A stretch of 64,000 bases of DNA, taken from NCBI RefSeq assembly GCF_008017835.1, contig NZ_VRLT01000029.1:124001-188000 (forward strand), read 5' to 3'. Shown here in pieces: positions 14,032 through 61,321 of this stretch (position 1 is its first letter; the number at the start of each line of letters is the position of its first letter). The notes beneath the pieces were generated by a model. It saw only the letters and a program-made list of their open reading frames with translations, had not been told where the DNA came from and did no database searches. Source of the stretch: Mesonia sp. HuA40 (GTDB lineage Bacteria; Bacteroidota; Bacteroidia; Flavobacteriales; Flavobacteriaceae). Made by a program: the position numbers and the translations under genes.

Positions 14032-15080
14032 AATTCTTTAAAGTTAGCATATAAATTGGCTGCCACCTGCTTAGTTTCATAGGTTTGTGCAGTAGCATAA
14101 GCTTTTTCCTGAATTTGGTTTTGTTTATCTATGGGTAAAGCTAAGTAATTTTTAATTTGTTGCACCACCTCTGGCACAGAATTAAATAAAAAACCATTTA
14201 CTCCAGGTTGTACATAACCCGTAGCTCCTCCTATATTTCTGGCAAATAAGATACTTTTACAAGCCATGGCTTCTAAACCTACCAAGCCTAAGCTTTCTGG
14301 AAGTTCTGTAGGGAAAATAAAAAGTTCTGATTGTTGATAAATCTCGGCTAATTTTTCCTTTTCCTGAAAGCCTCTAAAGTCAATATCTTCTTTAAAAGGA
14401 TTTTCTGCAATAGCATCGAGCAGCATTTTTTTCTGATTTCCATCTCCTGCAATAACCGCCCTAATGTTTATACCTGCTTTATTTAATTGGGTATAAATGG
14501 CTAAAAAATCTTGCCATCCCTTTCCTTCGTCTATTCGGGACACATAAGCCATTTGTAATGCTTTTCGTTTTGAAAGATCCGGATAAAACAAACCGGTATT
14601 AATTCCGCCAGACGGGTATACAAAAAAAGGGATATTAAGGCTTGGGTATCTATTTTGTACTACTTGTTTAAAATAGAAAGAAGGTACTACCAAAGCGTCT
14701 ATATTTTTTAAGGTTCTATTTTGCCATTGGTCTAAAATTGAATTGGGTTTTATAGCACTTACATCAGAGCCGTGTAGGTTAAGCACCATGGGCTTTTTTT
14801 GCATCTGTTTATACCAGAAAATTAAAGGTAAATTATGAGTTAAAAAATGAACATACACCAAATTGTGTTGTCGATGAAAAACACTAAAAATAGCTTTTAT
14901 ATAGTACTTAGCATAAGTAAGCAGTTTTTGAATTGTTGAGCTGCGTTTTCCTTGAATAAGTATTTTTTGCGTAAATGTAGCTCCATTTTCTTGGAGTGCA
15001 AAGACCGTTTTTTTGACAAATACCCCAAACAACTTATCTGTTGCTGCTGGGTACATATTGGAAATTAGCTTAATTTTCAT
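14016..15080 (-). CDS. Family 4 glycosyltransferase
   Basis: A 354 aa GT-B glycosyltransferase. N-terminal KLISNMYPAATDKLFGVFVK is the usual opening of a subgroup that begins with a donor/acceptor loop; the C-terminal half has YVSRIDEGKGWQDFL, VIAGDGNQKKML, IDFRGFQEKEKLAEIYQQSELFIFPTELPESLGLVGLEAMACK, the last being the E-x7-E sugar-nucleotide motif. No signal peptide, so it acts in the cytoplasm at the membrane face. Located between wzy and the acetyltransferase gene. Confidence 0.93.
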   Translation of the reverse strand: MKIKLISNMYPAATDKLFGVFVKKTVFALQENGATFTQKILIQGKRSSTIQKLLTYAKYYIKAIFSVFHRQHNLVYVHFLTHNLPLIFWYKQMQKKPMVLNLHGSDVSAIKPNSILDQWQNRTLKNIDALVVPSFYFKQVVQNRYPSLNIPFFVYPSGGINTGLFYPDLSKRKALQMAYVSRIDEGKGWQDFLAIYTQLNKAGINIRAVIAGDGNQKKMLLDAIAENPFKEDIDFRGFQEKEKLAEIYQQSELFIFPTELPESLGLVGLEAMACKSILFARNIGGATGYVQPGVNGFLFNSVPEVVQQIKNYLALPIDKQNQIQEKAYATAQTYETKQVAANLYANFKELCSKK

Positions 15081-22691: not shown

Positions 22692-23701
22692 TGTAAATAT
22701 TTTTTTAAGTACCAGTTTATGGTTTTCTCTATTCCTGTTTCAAAATTTTCTTGGGCTTGCCAACCTAGTTCTTTTTCTATTTTTTGGGCATCTATGGCAT
22801 ATCTAAAATCGTGTCCAGGTCTGTCTTTAACAAAGGTGATAAGTTCTAGATAGGAATCTTTAGCGGCCCGTGGGTGCTGCTGATCTAGGATTTTACAGAT
22901 GTATTGAGCGATATATAAATTTTGTCGTTCATTTTTACCGCCAATGTTATAGGTTTCGCCTAATTTTCCGCTTTCTAAAGCTTTCTGAATCCCTTTACAG
23001 TGATCTTCTACATATAACCAATCTCTGATATTGGTTCCTTGACCATAAATAGGAATCGGCTCTCCTTTTAAAGCTTTACGAATTATGGTTGGAATTAATT
23101 TTTCATCGTGTTGATAAGGGCCATAATTATTGGAGCAATTGGTGGTTACCACAGGCATACCATAGGTATGAAAGTAACTTCTTACCAACATATCTGAAGC
23201 TGCTTTTGAAGCGCTGTAAGGGCTGTTGGGTGCGTATGGCGTCTCTTCTGTAAATAAACCTTCTTCTCCCAAAGTGCCGTAAACCTCATCGGTAGAAACG
23301 TGCAAAAATCGGGCTTTTGCAAAAGTAGTTTTATGCTCGAAGGGAGCAGTCATCCATAATTTATAAGCAGCTTGTAAGAGGTTAAAGGTTCCGTTTACAT
23401 TGGTTTCTACAAATACAGCAGGATTGGCAATTGAGTTATCTACGTGAGATTCGGCGGCAAAGTGAACCACTTCTTGAAATTGATATTCCTCAAAAAGATT
23501 ATTCACCAATTGCGCATCGCAAATATCACCTTTAACGAATTGATAGTTGGGATGATTTGGCTGTTCAATATTATCTAAATTGGCCGCATAGGTGAGTTTA
23601 TCTAAATTTACAACCCGAATTTCTTTCTTGGCTCTAAGAATATAATTGATATAATTAGACCCGATAAACCCAGCTCCTCCTGTTACTAATATTGTTTTCA
23701 T
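22688..23701 (-). CDS. rfbB: dTDP-glucose 4,6-dehydratase
   Basis: RmlB, an SDR-family dehydratase of 337 aa that converts dTDP-glucose to the 4-keto-6-deoxy sugar using bound NAD+. [14 protein letters not shown] near residue 6 binds [27 protein letters not shown] (with Asp-Glu catalytic pair), [15 protein letters not shown] (YxxxK) and [10 protein letters not shown] follow in order. Overlaps both neighbours by 4 bp, showing tight coupling with the Wzz-like gene and rfbA. Confidence 0.97.
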
Positions 23702-36255: not shown

Positions 36256-36271
36256 TGTTCCACGTGAAACA
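36256..36271. promoter_or_regulatory. parS: parS site 1 (ParB-binding)
   Basis: TGTTCCACGTGAAACA, an exact match to the bacterial parS consensus TGTTNCACGTGAAACA, located in the 37 bp gap between the stop of mnmG and the start of the lipoprotein gene. parS sites bind ParB, nucleate the partition complex, and are usually clustered near the origin of replication. Confidence 0.9.
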
Positions 36272-36278
36272 ATACTAT

Positions 36279-38150
36279 TTATCTACCCATATAAACCAAT
36301 AAAACCGAAATATCTGCAGGACTAACGCCACTCACCCTAGAAGCTTGAGAAACCGTTGTAGGTTTAATCTCCGAAAGTTTCTGCCTTGCCTCCATCGACA
36401 TGGATTGCAATTTAAAGTAATCAAAATTATCAGGAATCTTTAAGATTTCTAAGCGATTCAATTTATCTGCATTGTTTTTCTCTTTCTCGATATAACCCGA
36501 ATATTTAACCTGTATTTCTACTTGCTCTAAAATTTCATCATCAAGTTTGTGTGTCTCAATGTAATCCTCAACAACTTTTACCGAACGCATAGTCTCTAAA
36601 GTCATTTTAGGTCTTGCGAAGATTTTAAACATCTTACCAGCTTGTTTCACAGGTGCAGAATTGTGCGCTTCCAAAATAGGATTCATCTCTTCTGGCGCGA
36701 CGCTAGTATCTTTAAAAAACTGAACCATTTTATCAGCTTCTTCCTGCTTGTAATTCATCCGCTTTAAGCGAGCTTCACTGGCTAAACCAATATCAAAACT
36801 CTTTTTTGTAAGTCTAAAATCGGCATTATCTTGACGTAGAAGCGTTCTATATTCGGCTCTACTGGTAAACATTCTATAAGGCTCTTCTGTACCTTTAGTA
36901 ATCAAATCATCGATTAAAACACCAATATAAGCCTCATCTCTTTTTAAAATAAACTCTTCTCTTTCTTGAATTTTAAGTGCTGCATTAATTCCTGCCATTA
37001 ATCCTTGACTGGCAGCTTCTTCATAACCTGTAGTACCATTAATTTGACCAGCGAAATACAAGTGATCAACCAATTTAGTTTCAAGCGTATGCTTTAATTG
37101 TGTTGGCGGAAAATAATCATATTCAATTGCGTATCCGGGTCTGAAAAATTTTACGTTTTCAAATCCTTTTACTGATTTAAGTGCGTTGTATTGTACCTCT
37201 TCTGGCAAGGAAGTAGAGAAGCCATTTACATAATATTCAACAGTATTCCAGCCCTCTGGTTCTACAAAAAGTTGGTGCCTATCCTTATCTGCAAAACGGT
37301 TTATTTTATCCTCGATACTCGGACAATAACGCGGTCCGACACTTTCAATACGTCCGTTAAACATAGGTGAGCGATCAAAACCTTCGCGTAGCAGATCGTG
37401 AACCAAGGTAGAAGTATAAGTCATATGGCAACTACGCTGATTTTTTAAAGGTTGAGTTACATCTAAATAAGAGAATTTAGCTGGATCCTCATCACCAGGT
37501 TGTTCAATCATTTTAGAAAAATCTAAAGAACGGCCATCCACTCTCGGAGGTGTACCGGTTTTCATTCTACCGGCTTCGAACCCCAATTCCATTAAGTCTG
37601 AAGTAATGCCAGTAGCAGCTCTTTCTCCTGCTCTACCTCCCCCAAAGTTCTTTTCACCAATATGAATAAGACCATTTAGGAAAGTTCCGTTAGTTAAGAT
37701 AACAGATTTGGCTTTTATTTGCAATCCTAAGCCAGTTTTAACCCCCTTTAATTTATCTTTTTCTAACCAAATCCCTTCAACCATATCTTGATAAAAATCT
37801 AGGTTTGGTGTTTGTTCTAGCATAAGCCGCCAATCTTCTGCAAAACGCATTCTATCACTTTGCACTCGGGGACTCCACATTGCTGGACCCTTACTTTTAT
37901 TAAGCATTTTAAATTGTATAGCACTGGTATCACTTACAATACCGCTATAACCACCCATTGCATCAATCTCCCGTACAATTTGACCTTTAGCTATACCCCC
38001 CATTGCCGGATTACACGACATTTGAGCGATATTTTGCAAATTCATAGTAATTAAAAGTGTTTTACATCCCATGTTAGCCGATGCCGCAGCGGCTTCGCTA
38101 CCTGCATGACCTCCACCTACAACAATCACATCATATTCTTTATCAAACAT
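36279..38150 (-). CDS. mnmG: tRNA uridine-5-carboxymethylaminomethyl modification enzyme MnmG (GidA)
   Basis: FAD-dependent enzyme that, with MnmE, modifies the wobble uridine (U34) of certain tRNAs. Full length at 623 aa. DVIVVGGGHAGSEAAAASANMG is the FAD-binding GxGxxG motif; CNPAMGGIAKGQIVREIDAMGG and GTFLNGLIHIGEKNFGGGRAGE are GidA signatures; Cys-containing RYCPSIEDKI and INGTTGYEEAASQGLMAGINA follow. The gene is bracketed by two parS sites, and gidA is classically linked to the replication origin in many bacteria. mnmE is not in the window. Confidence 0.98.
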   Translation of the reverse strand: MFDKEYDVIVVGGGHAGSEAAAASANMGCKTLLITMNLQNIAQMSCNPAMGGIAKGQIVREIDAMGGYSGIVSDTSAIQFKMLNKSKGPAMWSPRVQSDRMRFAEDWRLMLEQTPNLDFYQDMVEGIWLEKDKLKGVKTGLGLQIKAKSVILTNGTFLNGLIHIGEKNFGGGRAGERAATGITSDLMELGFEAGRMKTGTPPRVDGRSLDFSKMIEQPGDEDPAKFSYLDVTQPLKNQRSCHMTYTSTLVHDLLREGFDRSPMFNGRIESVGPRYCPSIEDKINRFADKDRHQLFVEPEGWNTVEYYVNGFSTSLPEEVQYNALKSVKGFENVKFFRPGYAIEYDYFPPTQLKHTLETKLVDHLYFAGQINGTTGYEEAASQGLMAGINAALKIQEREEFILKRDEAYIGVLIDDLITKGTEEPYRMFTSRAEYRTLLRQDNADFRLTKKSFDIGLASEARLKRMNYKQEEADKMVQFFKDTSVAPEEMNPILEAHNSAPVKQAGKMFKIFARPKMTLETMRSVKVVEDYIETHKLDDEILEQVEIQVKYSGYIEKEKNNADKLNRLEILKIPDNFDYFKLQSMSMEARQKLSEIKPTTVSQASRVSGVSPADISVLLVYMGR

Positions 38151-38161
38151 CTTAAACGCTT

Positions 38162-38581
38162 TTAATGTTCCACGTGGAACATGTCAATTTTTTCATTCTC
38201 TTTTTCACGCATTATTCTCTTTTCAGCATCGGTCGCATCACTATAACCACATAAATGTAAAATCCCGTGAGCCATAACCCGTTTAAGTTCATTTTCAAAA
38301 CTAACCCCAAATTTTTCAGCATTCTCTTTTACTCGATCGGTAGAAATATATATATCTGAAAACAACTCTCTACCCACCTTATAATCAAAGGTAATAATAT
38401 CGGTATAGGTATCATGACTAAGATATTCCTGATTAATTTTAAGTAAAAATTCGTCATCGCAAAAAACATAATTGATTTCGCCTAGGCGATGCTTTTCGGA
38501 TAGAATAATTTGATTTATCCAGCGTTCATATTCCTGTGGTGCGGGAAGCTGAAAATCGTTTTCGTTATTAAAATGAATCAT
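38162..38581 (-). CDS. ybeY: Endoribonuclease/rRNA maturation factor YbeY
   Basis: A 139 aa metalloprotein involved in 16S rRNA 3' maturation and ribosome quality control. VFCDDEFLLKINQEYLSHDTYTDIITFDY is the conserved core, followed by AHGILHLCGYSD. The third zinc-ligand His of the HGxLHLxGYDH motif is replaced (YSD), which I recall as usual in Bacteroidetes. The last six residues, MFHVEH, are encoded by a perfect parS palindrome, so the C-terminal tail is probably not constrained as protein. The start overlaps the DUF4175 gene by 14 bp. Confidence 0.93.
   Translation of the reverse strand: MIHFNNENDFQLPAPQEYERWINQIILSEKHRLGEINYVFCDDEFLLKINQEYLSHDTYTDIITFDYKVGRELFSDIYISTDRVKENAEKFGVSFENELKRVMAHGILHLCGYSDATDAEKRIMREKENEKIDMFHVEH
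38166..38181. promoter_or_regulatory. parS: parS site 2, inside the 3' end of ybeY
   Basis: TGTTCCACGTGGAACA, a perfect 16 bp palindrome and one base from the consensus; the same form occurs among known parS sites. It lies within the coding sequence of ybeY just before the stop and upstream of mnmG. Confidence 0.85.
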
Positions 38582-50738: not shown

Positions 50739-52931
50739 TTAAGATTCGGCATGACCTAATAAGTGAAAATCAAGATGTCTTTTAATTACATCGGCTTCTT
50801 TAACTTTTACCAAAACATCATCTCCTAATTGATACACATTTTTAGAATTTCTCCCAACCACAGCAAAATTTTCTGGGTCATAATCGTAGTGGTCATCATT
50901 TAAATCGCGCAAGCGCACCATTCCTTCACATTTATTCTCTTGTACTTCAATATAAATACCCCATTCGGTTACACCAGAAATAACGCCTAAAAAGGTTTCG
51001 TCTTGGTGGTTTTTCATAAACTTTACTTGCATATATTTGATTGAATCGCGTTCTGCTTGTGTGGCAAAATTCTCCATGTCGCTACAATGATTGCATCGAT
51101 CTTCATAAACTTCATCGTCTGGACTAGGTTTTTGATCTAAATAATGCTGCAATAAACGATGTGCCATAATATCTGGGTAACGTCTAATAGGGGAAGTAAA
51201 GTGACTATATGCATCAAAAGCTAAGCCGTAGTGACCGATGTTTTTTGTACTATAATAAGCCTTACTCATACTTCTAATGGTAAGCGTATCAACCAGATTT
51301 TGTTCTTTTTTACCTTGTACTTCTTCTAGCAATCCGTTTAAGGAATTAGAAATAGCTTTAGGACTACTCAAATTAAGTTTGTAACCAAATTTAGCGACTA
51401 AAGTCTCTAAAGAAGCTAATTTTTCATCGTTAGGTTCATCGTGGCAGCGGTATATAAAAGTTTTCTTTGGTTCTTGTTTAGCGATAAATTCGGCTACTTT
51501 TTTATTGGCCAACAACATGAATTCTTCAATTAATTTATTGGCGTCTTTCGCGGTTTTGAAAAATACACCTAAAGGTTCATTATCTTCATCTAAATTGAAT
51601 TTAACTTCAACTTTATCAAAAGAAATCGCACCCGATTGCATACGTTTTTTACGTAAAATTTTAGCTAATTTGTCTAGACTCAATATCGCTTCCACCACCC
51701 TTGAATCGGCTTCATAGCTTTCGCCTTCAATTGCAATCTCTGCCGGTATATTAGCCTGTTTAGTTTCAATAATATGCTGTGCCTCTTCATAAGCAAAACG
51801 GGCGTCGCTATAGGTGACCGTTCTTCCGAACCATTGATTAATTACTTTGGCTTGTGCATTGAGTTCAAAAATAGCCGAAAAAGTAAATTTTTCCTCGTGA
51901 GGTCGCAAAGAACAAGCTTTATTTGATAAAATTTCTGGTAACATGGGAATTACACGGTCAACTAAATAAATAGAAGTAGCCCTTTCGTATGCTTCATCAT
52001 CTAAAGGGGTATTGGGTTGTACATAATGCGAAACATCGGCAATATGAATCCCTATTTCTACATTTCCATTTTCAAGAGTTCTAAAACTCAAAGCATCATC
52101 AAAGTCTTTGGCATCTTTAGGATCTATAGTAAAAGTTAGCACCTCACGTAAATCTCTTCTTTTACTAATTTCTTGTTGGGTGATACTTGTATCTAGCTGT
52201 TGTGCAAATCTTTCTACTTCTTCCGGAAATTCAGACGCAATATCATTCGTGGCTAAAATACCCTTCATTTCTGTTTCGTGTTCTCCGGGTTTACCCAAAA
52301 CTTCTATGATTTTCCCTAGTGGTGAATCTCCTTTCTTCTTCCATTCTTGAAGTTCAACCAAAACCAACATTCCATTTTCTGCTTTATCCAGTTGATCTTT
52401 GCCTATAAAAATATCGGTATACATTTTAGGATCATTTACTACAACGAAGCCAAAATTCTCTTGTTTGGTCAAGGTACCTACAAATTTTGTTTTATTGCGT
52501 TTAACAATTTCAACCACTTCACCTTCGCTCCTTCTATTTCTTCTTTTGTTATAGATATAAATTTTTACCAAATCTCCATCTAAAGCTTTGTTAAGCTGAT
52601 TATTGGGCACAAAAACATCATTGTCTTCATTTTCGAGCACAATATAAGCATCACCCTTTGAAGTCATGTCAACTACACCCTGGTAATAATTATGCTGTAA
52701 ATTGATTTGAAATTTTCCTCGATCAACAGCTAGAATATCTTTTTTCCCAGCTAATTGATTGAGTTTTTTAATGATTTGATTTCTACCTGAAGCATCATTT
52801 ACCTTTAACTTAGCCGCAATTTGCTTGTAATTAAAAGTTTTTTCAGGATGTTCACGCAAAATGCTTAAAATCTTTTGAGATAGATTATTTATTTTATTTT
52901 GAGAGGATTTTTTCTTTTTTCTTTTTGTCAT
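50739..52931 (-). CDS. rnr: Ribonuclease R
   Basis: A 3'-5' exoribonuclease of 730 aa degrading structured RNA. A helix-turn-helix-like N-terminus (LSQKILSILREHPEKTFNYKQIAAKL), two cold-shock-type OB domains, the RNB catalytic domain with FTIDPKDAKDFDDALSF near residue 270 (metal-binding Asp residues), ADVSHYV and the later HFTSPIRRYPDIMAHRLLQ, and a C-terminal S1 domain. Divergent from the AT-rich intergenic stretch; promoter at 53005-53033. Confidence 0.97.
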   Translation of the reverse strand: MTKRKKKKSSQNKINNLSQKILSILREHPEKTFNYKQIAAKLKVNDASGRNQIIKKLNQLAGKKDILAVDRGKFQINLQHNYYQGVVDMTSKGDAYIVLENEDNDVFVPNNQLNKALDGDLVKIYIYNKRRNRRSEGEVVEIVKRNKTKFVGTLTKQENFGFVVVNDPKMYTDIFIGKDQLDKAENGMLVLVELQEWKKKGDSPLGKIIEVLGKPGEHETEMKGILATNDIASEFPEEVERFAQQLDTSITQQEISKRRDLREVLTFTIDPKDAKDFDDALSFRTLENGNVEIGIHIADVSHYVQPNTPLDDEAYERATSIYLVDRVIPMLPEILSNKACSLRPHEEKFTFSAIFELNAQAKVINQWFGRTVTYSDARFAYEEAQHIIETKQANIPAEIAIEGESYEADSRVVEAILSLDKLAKILRKKRMQSGAISFDKVEVKFNLDEDNEPLGVFFKTAKDANKLIEEFMLLANKKVAEFIAKQEPKKTFIYRCHDEPNDEKLASLETLVAKFGYKLNLSSPKAISNSLNGLLEEVQGKKEQNLVDTLTIRSMSKAYYSTKNIGHYGLAFDAYSHFTSPIRRYPDIMAHRLLQHYLDQKPSPDDEVYEDRCNHCSDMENFATQAERDSIKYMQVKFMKNHQDETFLGVISGVTEWGIYIEVQENKCEGMVRLRDLNDDHYDYDPENFAVVGRNSKNVYQLGDDVLVKVKEADVIKRHLDFHLLGHAES

Positions 52932-53004
52932 AGTATCTATTTACTTGGATAAAAGTAAAGTATATAAACGAATGCTAAGAATATTTTATATAAACTTTTG
53001 TATT

Positions 53005-53033
53005 CAAAGATAAAAAACAATTAAATGCCTCAA
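53005..53033 (-). promoter_or_regulatory. Promoter of rnr
   Basis: On the minus strand TTG (53031-53033), 18 bp spacer, TATCTTTG (53005-53012). Long 5' leader of about 65 nt before the rnr ATG. Confidence 0.6.
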
Positions 53034-53095
53034 CTTTACGTAAAAATAACTAATAGTTAAACTCTTAACAATGTTAAATAAATGCAAAAAAATTG

Positions 53096-53103
53096 TATTT
53101 TTG
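53096..53103 (+). promoter_or_regulatory. -7 element before the 30-codon peptide gene
   Basis: TATTTTTG, matching TANNTTTG, 29 bp before the ATG of the small peptide gene. Confidence 0.45.
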
Positions 53104-53132
53104 AGGTATACATTATAAACAATCAATTTTTG

Positions 53133-53225
53133 ATGTCTAAAAGTAAAAAATATCTTTTCTTATTTATTCTCATTTTTATTTTGGGCTATCTAAGTATTTT
53201 CTTTTCGATTAATGCCATTTTCTAA
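53133..53225 (+). CDS. Candidate small membrane peptide, 30 aa
   Basis: ATG followed by 30 codons, reading MSKSKKYLFLFILIFILGYL and then SIFFSINAIF before TAA. A basic start (KSKK) precedes one hydrophobic helix of about 20 residues, the pattern of a real single-span membrane peptide, and a -7 box lies 29 bp upstream. I know no family for it. Low base complexity of AT-rich DNA can produce such frames by chance, so it is a candidate only. Confidence 0.4.
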   Translation: MSKSKKYLFLFILIFILGYLSIFFSINAIF

Positions 53226-53814
53226 ATAGGTAGTTTTAGTCTATCTCTTTTTTTTTAAGTTTAATTCGGGTTCTTTTTCTCTTTAGCCAACTTATCAACA
53301 TTCTATTGTATTATTATTTTCTTCTTATTTAAATTTAAAAAAAAATGATGATTATTATTGTTTGTGAATAGCGGTATAATTTTACATATCATTTTTTTGA
53401 ATTATCATTAAACACAAAACTTAAACTAAATTCCTTGCATTTGTTAATAGTAAAATATTGATTTATATAGTTTTCGACTCACTTGTTAACAGTTGTTAAT
53501 AAGTAAAATAACAATAGAATGTTTATTAAAGATTTTGAAAAAACATGTTGATAAGTGTGAAATTATAGCCTAAAACTTTTTCTAAAAAATAAATAACTTT
53601 ACTTGACTTTGATAATTAAACGCTCATATTGAAATAATAATGGAATAACCAAAAATAAGTTTTAAGAAAATATTAGCACTTATCAACAAAAAAGGTGAAT
53701 TATTAATTGCTTTAAGCTGAAGTGTTTATCATTTTTAATTAACACACCTGTAAATAGTCATTCTGGTTGAAAAACTTCATACCTTTGCCTCTATCAACAA
53801 CACAAAATTTTATT
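53226..53814. other. oriC: Gene-free AT-rich stretch with DnaA-box cluster (candidate oriC)
   Basis: No gene here. It contains three exact TTATCAACA nonamers (53292-53300 plus; 53546-53554 minus; 53680-53688 plus) and a TTATTAACA (53494-53502 minus), close to the DnaA-box consensus TTATNCACA, with AT-rich tracts between them that could serve as an unwinding element. The flanking genes rnr and rpiB diverge. Two parS sites lie about 15-17 kb to the left. Origin function is inferred, not shown. Confidence 0.55.
53780..53787 (+). promoter_or_regulatory. -7 promoter element of rpiB
   Basis: TACCTTTG, a perfect TANNTTTG box 27 bp before the rpiB ATG; it overlaps an upstream alternative frame, supporting the shorter protein. 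Confidence 0.55.
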
Positions 53815-54246
53815 ATGACCATCGCAATTGGAAACGATCATGCCGGTACGGCATACAAAAAAGCTATTGTTAAGCATTTAGAGAATAAAGGAATAAAAGT
53901 AATTAATCATGGTACAGACCACGAAGAGAGTGTAGATTATCCAGATTTTATTCACCCTGTTGCTCAATCGGTAAGTGAGCAAAAGGTAGATTTAGGAATA
54001 ATTATTTGCGGAAGCGGTAATGGTGCTGCTATGACCGCTAATAAACATGCAGACGTGAGATGCGCTTTATGTTGGACTAAAGAAATAGTTGCTCTAGCTC
54101 GAGCACATAATGATGCTAATATATTAAGTATTCCTGCTCGTTTTACCAGTCTACCGCAAGTAATTGAAATGGTAGACACTTATTTAAGTACTCAATTTGA
54201 AGGCGGAAGACATCAAAACCGGGTAAATAAAATCGCTTGCCAATAA
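53815..54246 (+). CDS. rpiB: Ribose-5-phosphate isomerase B
   Basis: Interconverts ribose 5-phosphate and ribulose 5-phosphate. The 143 aa protein begins MTIAIGNDHAGTAYK (GNDHAG signature), followed by HGTDHEESVDYPDF and the catalytic loop GIIICGSGNGAAMTANKHADVRCALCW with the active-site Cys in ICGSG. The ATG at 53815 is chosen because the family starts there; 16 extra codons upstream are inside the promoter. First gene of a plus-strand run with the CDF transporter 1 bp downstream. Confidence 0.95.
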   Translation: MTIAIGNDHAGTAYKKAIVKHLENKGIKVINHGTDHEESVDYPDFIHPVAQSVSEQKVDLGIIICGSGNGAAMTANKHADVRCALCWTKEIVALARAHNDANILSIPARFTSLPQVIEMVDTYLSTQFEGGRHQNRVNKIACQ

Positions 54247-59826: not shown

Positions 59827-60189
59827 CTAAACTTTTTTATTAAATTCGATTAAAAGCTGCTGCATTGCTTTTGAAATAGTGGTAGAAGTCTGCTTTCTAT
59901 TACCTAGAAAAATAAACAAGATATTATAGTTTTTATGCAGCTTAACCTGGTCTTTTTGTAACCGGTAAGCTTCGCGTATTTGTCTTTTGATGCGATTTCT
60001 GTCTACAGCAAGTTTAAAGTTGCGCTTAGGAACGCTAACCATTATTTTTGGAGCTTCTTGATCTTTTTTGAAAGCAGGTTTATATACCATTCTGAGCGGA
60101 AATTTTTTCTGCGTTTCTCCATTTTCAAACAGCGCTTTTATAGCTGTCTTACTTTTTAAACGTTGATCTTTTCCTAAGGTTTTTTTCAT
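59827..60189 (-). CDS. rnpA: Ribonuclease P protein component
   Basis: The small basic subunit that helps the RNase P RNA bind precursor tRNA. 120 aa from the ATG at 60187-60189 (MKKTLGKDQRLKSKTAIKALFENG); the RNR signature is RNRIKRQIREAYRL near residue 70. An ATG 45 bp upstream would give an unlikely extension reaching into the dinB stop region. Unlike many bacteria, rpmH is not adjacent. Its presence here, like that of mnmG, recalls the classic origin neighbourhood. Confidence 0.95.
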   Translation of the reverse strand: MKKTLGKDQRLKSKTAIKALFENGETQKKFPLRMVYKPAFKKDQEAPKIMVSVPKRNFKLAVDRNRIKRQIREAYRLQKDQVKLHKNYNILFIFLGNRKQTSTTISKAMQQLLIEFNKKV

Positions 60190-60223
60190 GCTGTAAATAT
60201 AACAAGTAAATAAGCTGCCTAGA

Positions 60224-61321
60224 TTAAAATTCAAATTTAAGTTGTTTACCTATAATTGTTGTTGGTTCTTGCTTTACGGATGCATGTCCAGGTTTTTTTA
60301 AATTAGTTATTGATATCCCTACTAAACGCACCGAATTTTGCAATTTTTCTTGATACAAAAGTGTCTTAGCATTTTCAAGAATAAGTGCTTTATCTCGAAT
60401 ATAAAAAGCTAGAGTTTTACTTCTAGTTTGTACACTAAAATCGCCATATTTTATTTTAAGCGTAATGGTTTTGCCTGAGAATTTATTTTTGTCTAGGCGC
60501 TGAGCTACTTCTGTAGCAATTTGGCTTAAGCGTTCTTCAAGAAAAATTTCAGAACTAATATTGTTTGAAAAAGTGCGCTCGGCACCAACAGATTTACGTA
60601 CTCGCTCTGGCTTCACTTCACTTAGGTGCACCCCTCTTACAACTTGGTAATATAATTTACCGCTTTTCCCAAAATGATTTTCTAAAAATTCTAGTGATTT
60701 TAATTTTAAATCTGAACCTTTAAAAATTCCAAGCTGATACATTTTTTGTGCGGTAACTTTACCAACACCAAAAAACTTTTTTATTTCTAAATCTTCTAAA
60801 AATTGTTCAACTTCCTCGGGAGGTACGGTTTTTTGGCCGTTAGGCTTGTTTATATCACTAGCAATTTTAGCTACAAATTTATTAATTGAAATGCCTGCAG
60901 AAGCATTAAGCCCAGTTTTCTCTTTTATTTCTGCTCGTATTAAACGAGCAATTTGCGTTGCGCTACTTAAGTCTTTTAAGTTTTCAGTCACGTCTAAATA
61001 AGCTTCATCAAGCGACAAAGGCTCTACTAAAGGCGTATAACTTAAAAAGATGCTGCGTATTTGCGCAGATATTTCTTTATAACGTTCAAATCGTGGTTTT
61101 ATAAAAATTAAATCTGCGCAAAGCTTACTAGCTAACCTACCACTCATAGCGCTTCGTACCCCAAACTTACGGGCCTCATAGCTCGCGGCGGCTACCACAC
61201 CTCTTTTACCGCCACCGCCTACTGCAATGGGTTTATCTCGTAAATCTGGATGATCCAGTTGCTCAACAGAGGCGTAAAATGCATCCATATCTATATGTAT
61301 TATTTTGCGCTCTTTTACCAT
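60224..61321 (-). CDS. dinB: DNA polymerase IV (DinB)
   Basis: Y-family translesion polymerase of 365 aa. Catalytic motifs IIHIDMDAFYASVEQLD (first metal-binding Asp) and SLDEAYLDVT (Asp-Glu pair) are intact; the thumb contains SINKFVAKIASDINKPNGQ and the helix-hairpin FGVGKVTAQKMYQLGI; a little-finger domain follows. The C-terminal end does not show a clear QxxL(F)-type clamp motif except possibly GKQLKFEF. A TAACTTTG box lies only 4 bp before the ATG, so the mRNA is probably leaderless. Confidence 0.95.
   Translation of the reverse strand: MVKERKIIHIDMDAFYASVEQLDHPDLRDKPIAVGGGGKRGVVAAASYEARKFGVRSAMSGRLASKLCADLIFIKPRFERYKEISAQIRSIFLSYTPLVEPLSLDEAYLDVTENLKDLSSATQIARLIRAEIKEKTGLNASAGISINKFVAKIASDINKPNGQKTVPPEEVEQFLEDLEIKKFFGVGKVTAQKMYQLGIFKGSDLKLKSLEFLENHFGKSGKLYYQVVRGVHLSEVKPERVRKSVGAERTFSNNISSEIFLEERLSQIATEVAQRLDKNKFSGKTITLKIKYGDFSVQTRSKTLAFYIRDKALILENAKTLLYQEKLQNSVRLVGISITNLKKPGHASVKQEPTTIIGKQLKFEF

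Follow-up and report, generated by a model that had tools for sequence, protein, structure and literature searches.

In this Mesonia genome, chromosome replication very probably starts in the gap between the diverging genes rnr and rpiB, which would be a DnaA-dependent origin (oriC) of a known kind. The computational case consists of a DnaA-box cluster, conservation among relatives, a regional change in GC skew and nearby parS-like sites, which support the candidate origin put forward in the initial annotation, together with a module of fixed spacing. The window, that is, the whole 64,000-nucleotide stretch that was analyzed, lies on contig C22 of a draft genome of 62 contigs, with dnaA on contig C11. 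The features are listed below in window coordinates.

36256..36271, no strand assigned: parS-like site TGTTCCACGTGAAACA adjoining mnmG
38166..38181, no strand assigned: parS-like site TGTTCCACGTGGAACA on the opposite side of mnmG
50739..52931, minus strand: rnr, ribonuclease R, left flank (Pfam RNB, E 1.1e-111)
52932..53814, no strand assigned: rnr-rpiB intergenic gap, predicted oriC region, enclosing the annotated 53226-53814
53288..53383, plus strand: conserved core module, about 96 bp, in which converging DnaA boxes flank an AT-rich stretch
53292..53300, plus strand: DnaA box A, exact match to TTATCAACA, left arm of the core module
53301..53362, no strand assigned: AT-rich stretch from box A to box B, candidate DNA unwinding element
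53344..53358, minus strand: candidate DnaA-trio repeat, five NTN triplets (3'-NAN-5' on the plus strand), starting four bases from box B
53363..53371, minus strand: box B, CTATTCACA, one mismatch to TTATNNACA, right arm of the core module, with GCGG (plus strand) on its outer side
53483..53491, plus strand: degenerate box TTGTTAACA; the close relative G001 has TTATTAACA there
53494..53502, minus strand: DnaA box TTATTAACA
53546..53554, minus strand: DnaA box TTATCAACA; several same-genus gaps have a box at about equal distance from rpiB
53680..53688, plus strand: DnaA box TTATCAACA, closest to rpiB; several same-genus gaps have a box at about equal distance from rpiB
53815..54246, plus strand: rpiB, ribose-5-phosphate isomerase B, right flank (Pfam LacAB_rpiB, E 5.3e-56)

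The flanking genes diverge as initially annotated, with RNase R on the minus strand and RpiB on the plus strand. The gene-free stretch described at 53226-53814 lies inside the gap, but the true gap is longer, since rnr starts at 52931 and the gap therefore begins at 52932. The annotated stretch had begun at 53226 because a 30-codon open reading frame (53133-53225) stops just before it. This reading frame would encode a hydrophobic peptide and lies inside the gap, 0.2 kb from the rnr start. On the other side, the likely ATG of rpiB is at 53815, and the list of open reading frames begins the gene at an upstream TTG (53767).

The standard DnaA box is TTATCCACA. Three exact TTATCAACA nonamers and one TTATTAACA, distributed over both strands, were found in the gap where the annotation had placed them. 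The TTATCAACA copy at 14332-14340 was also present, but it is not the sole other copy in the window, as another occurs at 23109-23117. The resulting five exact copies compare with a shuffle mean of 1.12, and 1 of 100 shuffles reached five, which makes the count mildly unusual; TTATNNACA showed zero enrichment over the whole window (19 versus 19.3 expected). Clustering, as annotated, exceeds chance: the 62 exact TTATCAACA copies in the 2.64-Mb draft predict 0.003 triples within 389 bp, and one was found. The gap is the sole place in the draft with three exact copies within 400 bp, and its cluster is the top-scoring one over 348 kb of the 361.6-kb contig C22. A DnaA-box cluster in an intergenic region, as expected of an oriC, is present here.

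Conservation was assessed in 50 loci with diverging rnr and rpiB and a gap of 200-2600 bp (46.4 kb total). These gaps are not independent, as near-duplicates were kept and the window's own locus (L021) was included. The loci from which they were taken included one from an uncultured Mesonia (L075, RpiB 97% identical) and those of 15 further same-genus genomes. TTATNNACA occurred 186 times in the 50 gaps and TTATCAACA 46 times, compared with 29.0 and 1.6 in dinucleotide shuffles, respectively, while control intergenic DNA from the same loci (48.3 kb) contained 20 TTATNNACA and no TTATCAACA. The nonamers are kept in the gaps of relatives: counting that of the window, 49 of 50 gaps had at least one TTATNNACA; L043 had none, and L065, L069 and L077 had one each. 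Box positions agreed in many same-genus gaps, at about 517, 324, 260 and 126 bp upstream of rpiB. In G035, rpiB lies 37 kb off, yet the box cluster remains directly upstream of rnr. When the best TTATNAACA cluster per region was determined in 12 genomes, it fell in the gap in nine, tied in G010 and G027, and lay elsewhere in G007. Both the gap boxes and the module model described below show position and elements conserved in relatives, a further property expected of an oriC.

Boxes A and B form the arms of the core module, 71 bp from one to the other in the window, and enclose T-rich and A-rich stretches and a TGATGNTTATNAT element. Converging pairs 69-73 bp apart were found in 35 of 46 gaps, at another place in L036 and L037; this count left out L021, L022, L034 and L056 as near-duplicates or the window itself. 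The commonest distance was 71 bp (22 gaps), followed by 72 bp (10 gaps); mononucleotide shuffles gave 0.17 per distance. Pairs 63 and 64 bp apart were also frequent (12 gaps each) and represent other boxes of the gap. A 14-base motif performed well within the genus and poorly outside it, and gave way to the box-pair search. Out of 299 family genomes, 29 had a single match each to a strict module pattern, and the reversed control had none. All 29 loci lay within 1.5 kb of rnr and/or rpiB (rnr 27, rpiB 27). The strict pattern had no match in the other 270 family genomes or in the window itself, which fails it because of box B.

A sequence-only model was built from alignment A2, which has 48 modules as rows, the window included. 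From the 56 modules picked, A2 left out L044, L058, L061, L264, L265, L273, L274 and L276 (wrong strand or site); it also left out L075, near-identical to the window. A separate set of 14 rows was used minus G009, G003, G010 and G007, whose strand was wrong. At E-values up to 0.01, which are rough, the model matched 237 of 249 family genomes and 177 of 186 genera, some training genomes among them. Its match in the window (G000:C22:177290-177381, E 7.9e-12) belongs to one of the 48 training rows. The 12 family genomes with no model match include the single-contig G035. Placement is a better control than match counts that include training genomes. The 30 best-scoring loci, many of them from training genomes, all lay beside rnr and/or rpiB (22 both, 8 one), and in 15 of the 15 genomes with both places listed, match and rpiB shared a contig, the match lying 0.3-2.8 kb upstream of the gene. 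Across the wider order, 118 of 246 genomes (all families together) were matched, 73 of them from the same family and 45 from others. Other families gave weak matches, at E 1.6e-6 to 0.01, including one in G048 that lay 360 bp upstream of the rpiB of that genome.

On composition, the gap also holds the AT-rich element expected next to or between the boxes of an oriC: the 60 bp from 53290 are 87% A+T, the maximum among 26 such segments across the gap. According to the part of PMC8287927 drawn on here, DnaA-trios are searched for as three or more 3'-NAN-5' triplets within 16 bp of a DnaA box, and the commonest reported trio is 3'-GAT-5'. The window has five consecutive triplets beside box B (3'-TAT, TAT, TAG, TAG, TAA-5'), more than the three named in that excerpt, under a rule that is weak and easily satisfied in AT-rich DNA. 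3'-GAT-5' is not among these five triplets, and its prevalence in that excerpt is a matter of frequency, not a requirement. On the minus strand past box B, T was found at +6, +9, +15 and +18 in 100, 95, 81 and 81% of the 48 rows, respectively. At +12, the window has T, as do 14% of the rows, so that the middle triplet is unconserved. The family consensus has two triplets, a break, two more and then a T run. Judged from these letters, the repeat may be read as DnaA-trios with about even chances.

Cumulative GC skew along C22 (348 kb) drops to a minimum at C22:204285 and then climbs. The initial annotation had proposed checking whether the skew minimum falls in the gap; the shift holds for the region, but the exact minimum lies 26.5 kb to the right of the rpiB start. 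A fourfold-site model with gene strand as a factor placed the change point at 202 kb (198-205 kb within 2 units), with 177 kb worse by 5.2 log-likelihood units and a bootstrap range of 129-223 kb. The change point of gene strand was uninformative. Nearly all coding sequence at 180-204 kb of C22 is on one strand (minus), and the block C22:207000-227000 has its gene order inverted relative to G028 and G034. The inverted block or the one-strand gene run could displace the Mesonia skew minimum.

The same comparison was made in 12 genomes with flanks, the Mesonia genome included. All 12 showed skew declining as far as the region, and 10 showed it climbing on the far side; the remaining two, G006 and G011, have contigs that run out no more than 2 kb from the detected minimum, before any rise. 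The minimum fell within the gap in two of the 12 (G010, G025); in G008, it was just inside rnr, by 0.1 kb. The other nine genomes, Mesonia among them, had the minimum displaced toward rpiB by 7-47 kb, with a cumulative value 75-322 counts lower than at the gap. All nine minima that missed the gap were on the rpiB side, and none fell well past rnr. On the single contig of G028 (dnaA at base 415, module at 911.6 kb), skew went from -0.13 (860-880 kb) to +0.07 (900-920 kb) and +0.14 (940-1040 kb); a stretch sampled at 2.2 Mb gave -0.04, its sign against the pattern. So the exact place is given by the boxes and the module, and the neighborhood by skew and parS.

Two parS sites had been annotated 15-17 kb away, and both were recovered as parS-like sites flanking mnmG. 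At up to two mismatches, TGTTCCACGTGGAACA occurred at only two places in the genome listing, whereas the reversed control gave 1 match per strand; with this control, parS lies nearby, as expected of an oriC. All five relatives searched had parS-like sites within 40 kb of the gap or cluster (reversed control 0-4 per strand). Six other same-genus genomes likewise have a pair of such sites bracketing mnmG, with about 1.9 kb between the two. The origin-neighbor genes mnmG (36279-38150) and rnpA (59827-60234) were located within 25 kb, in agreement with the initial annotation. That annotation also placed dnaA outside the window, consistent with its location on C11. Within 40 kb around dnaA, the skew ranged from -0.14 to 0.00 with no negative-to-positive switch like that of C22, and no three TTATNNACA occurred within 600 bp. 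The dnaA neighborhood was rejected as the origin for lack of both a skew switch and a TTATNNACA cluster. Assuming circular contigs, about 0.9-1.9 Mb separates dnaA from the module or box cluster in G028, G034, G035 and G036, where both lie on one contig. The G028:C1 record begins near dnaA, with the predicted origin module 0.91 Mb off.

One alternative is an origin about 27 kb farther right, located at the skew minimum between a yceD-like gene and pdxA, with the gap cluster being something else. The raw cumulative minimum at C22:204285 and the 198-205 kb favored by the change point agree with such a location, as do two inverted boxes at 204331 and 204345, a pair kept in other genus members. 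However, the junction offers two boxes over about 76 bp, a smaller cluster than that of the gap, and was found in only five of 12 genomes, lying 29-56 kb from rpiB in four relatives. The skew minima of those relatives are about 1 kb left of rpiB (G008, G010) or 12-13 kb right of it (G003, G007), and the junction was rejected as the origin because it tracks the minimum in none of the other four genomes. In addition, the 207-227 kb inversion and the one-strand coding at 180-204 kb could have moved the Mesonia minimum. We consider an origin at this junction improbable. The inverted DnaA-like pair itself (C22:204331-204353, about window coordinate 80331, beyond the window) has starts 14 bp apart and lies in the 75-76 bp pdxA/yceD-like spacer of five genus members, one of which has a single box; it may be a DnaA-controlled promoter or titration site.

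DnaA-titrating or -regulating sites are known in E. coli as datA and DARS. Such sites too bear several DnaA boxes, and sequence alone is compatible with the gap being a site of this type near the origin rather than the origin itself. Against this stand the skew sign change in the neighborhood, the lack of a second exact-box triple in the draft, the resemblance of the AT-rich stretch and trinucleotide repeat between the boxes to an unwinding site, and the retention of the module in 237 of 249 family genomes, which leave a titrating role a very slim chance. Least credible, to the point of being scarcely worth entertaining, is an origin adjoining mnmG. The portions of PMC11278836 and PMC12843772 considered here place the oriC of two Flavobacteriaceae (Mariniflexile litorale and Algorimicrobium, respectively) at or next to mnmG by Ori-Finder 2022, in agreement with their GC-skew plots, and in Mesonia mnmG is 15-17 kb from the gap and flanked by parS-like sites. 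Yet of 12 genomes, 11 lacked TTATNAACA in the mnmG flanks (1.2 kb each side) and the other had a single copy there, whereas the 1.4 kb upstream of rpiB had 1-5 per genome; on this near-absence, the mnmG flanks were rejected as the origin. The published wording in those portions is also loose and may denote the same neighborhood.

With the rnr-rpiB gap as the origin, initiation would proceed as follows. DnaA, encoded elsewhere, would bind the TTATCAACA-type boxes. The AT-rich stretch sits between boxes A and B, which face each other across 71 bp, and may be opened by a DnaA filament extending from box B along the trinucleotide repeat; the helicase would then be loaded. Two forks would depart, leftward via rnr and mnmG and rightward via rpiB, and ParB on the parS-like sites beside mnmG would presumably gather the new origins.

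A wider proposal, which we hold tentatively and rate somewhat below an even chance, is that Flavobacteriaceae share a specific core in which converging boxes at a fixed 71-72 bp open the enclosed stretch from both ends. This core would be partly symmetric and new and would stay beside rnr or rpiB, and genome numbering based on dnaA would be misleading. As far as the literature was searched, DoriC aside, a Flavobacteriaceae core with fixed spacing is undescribed; titles and the openings of abstracts held no description of an rnr-rpiB origin or of the core module, and a DoriC listing is possible. Flavobacteriaceae are a large group of environmental and fish-associated bacteria. Origin positions in this group tend to rest on an assumption from dnaA or a prediction from skew, and the present results offer a precise candidate location across the family. 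As the 96-bp core can be found in one search, draft genomes could be oriented by it. The core would also provide the right origin for estimating growth rates from coverage and could serve in small origin plasmids for laboratory flavobacteria.

Compared with the Ori-Finder 2022 predictions of oriC at or next to mnmG, as worded in the portions of PMC11278836 and PMC12843772 cited above, the Mesonia boxes and module are in the rnr-rpiB gap and not at mnmG. The rpiB-mnmG distance was 15-36 kb in the 12 genomes measured. For Mariniflexile litorale, the dnaA position does not fit the skew plot, and figure legend and text disagree over which label is oriC, in the material taken from PMC11278836. The Basal Unwinding System of Bacillus subtilis, as given in the excerpt of PMC8287927, resembles the Mesonia gap in having DnaA boxes adjoining an AT-rich stretch with trinucleotide steps, at least three of them, with a conserved middle A and within 16 bp of a box. 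Relative to that excerpt (PMC8287927), the Mesonia triplets are 3'-TAN-5' and not 3'-GAT-5', and the middle one is unconserved in the family. Mesonia also differs from Bacillus subtilis in having its AT-rich stretch bounded by two converging boxes with a spacing of 71-72 bp, in its box family (TTATYAACA instead of TTATCCACA) and in not having dnaA as a neighbor of the gap. In E. coli, oriC contains several DnaA boxes beside an AT-rich unwinding element, with mnmG (gidA) in the vicinity. The Mesonia gap shares this combination of several boxes, an AT-rich element and a nearby mnmG, whereas its gene neighbors, box consensus and spacing all differ from those of E. coli.
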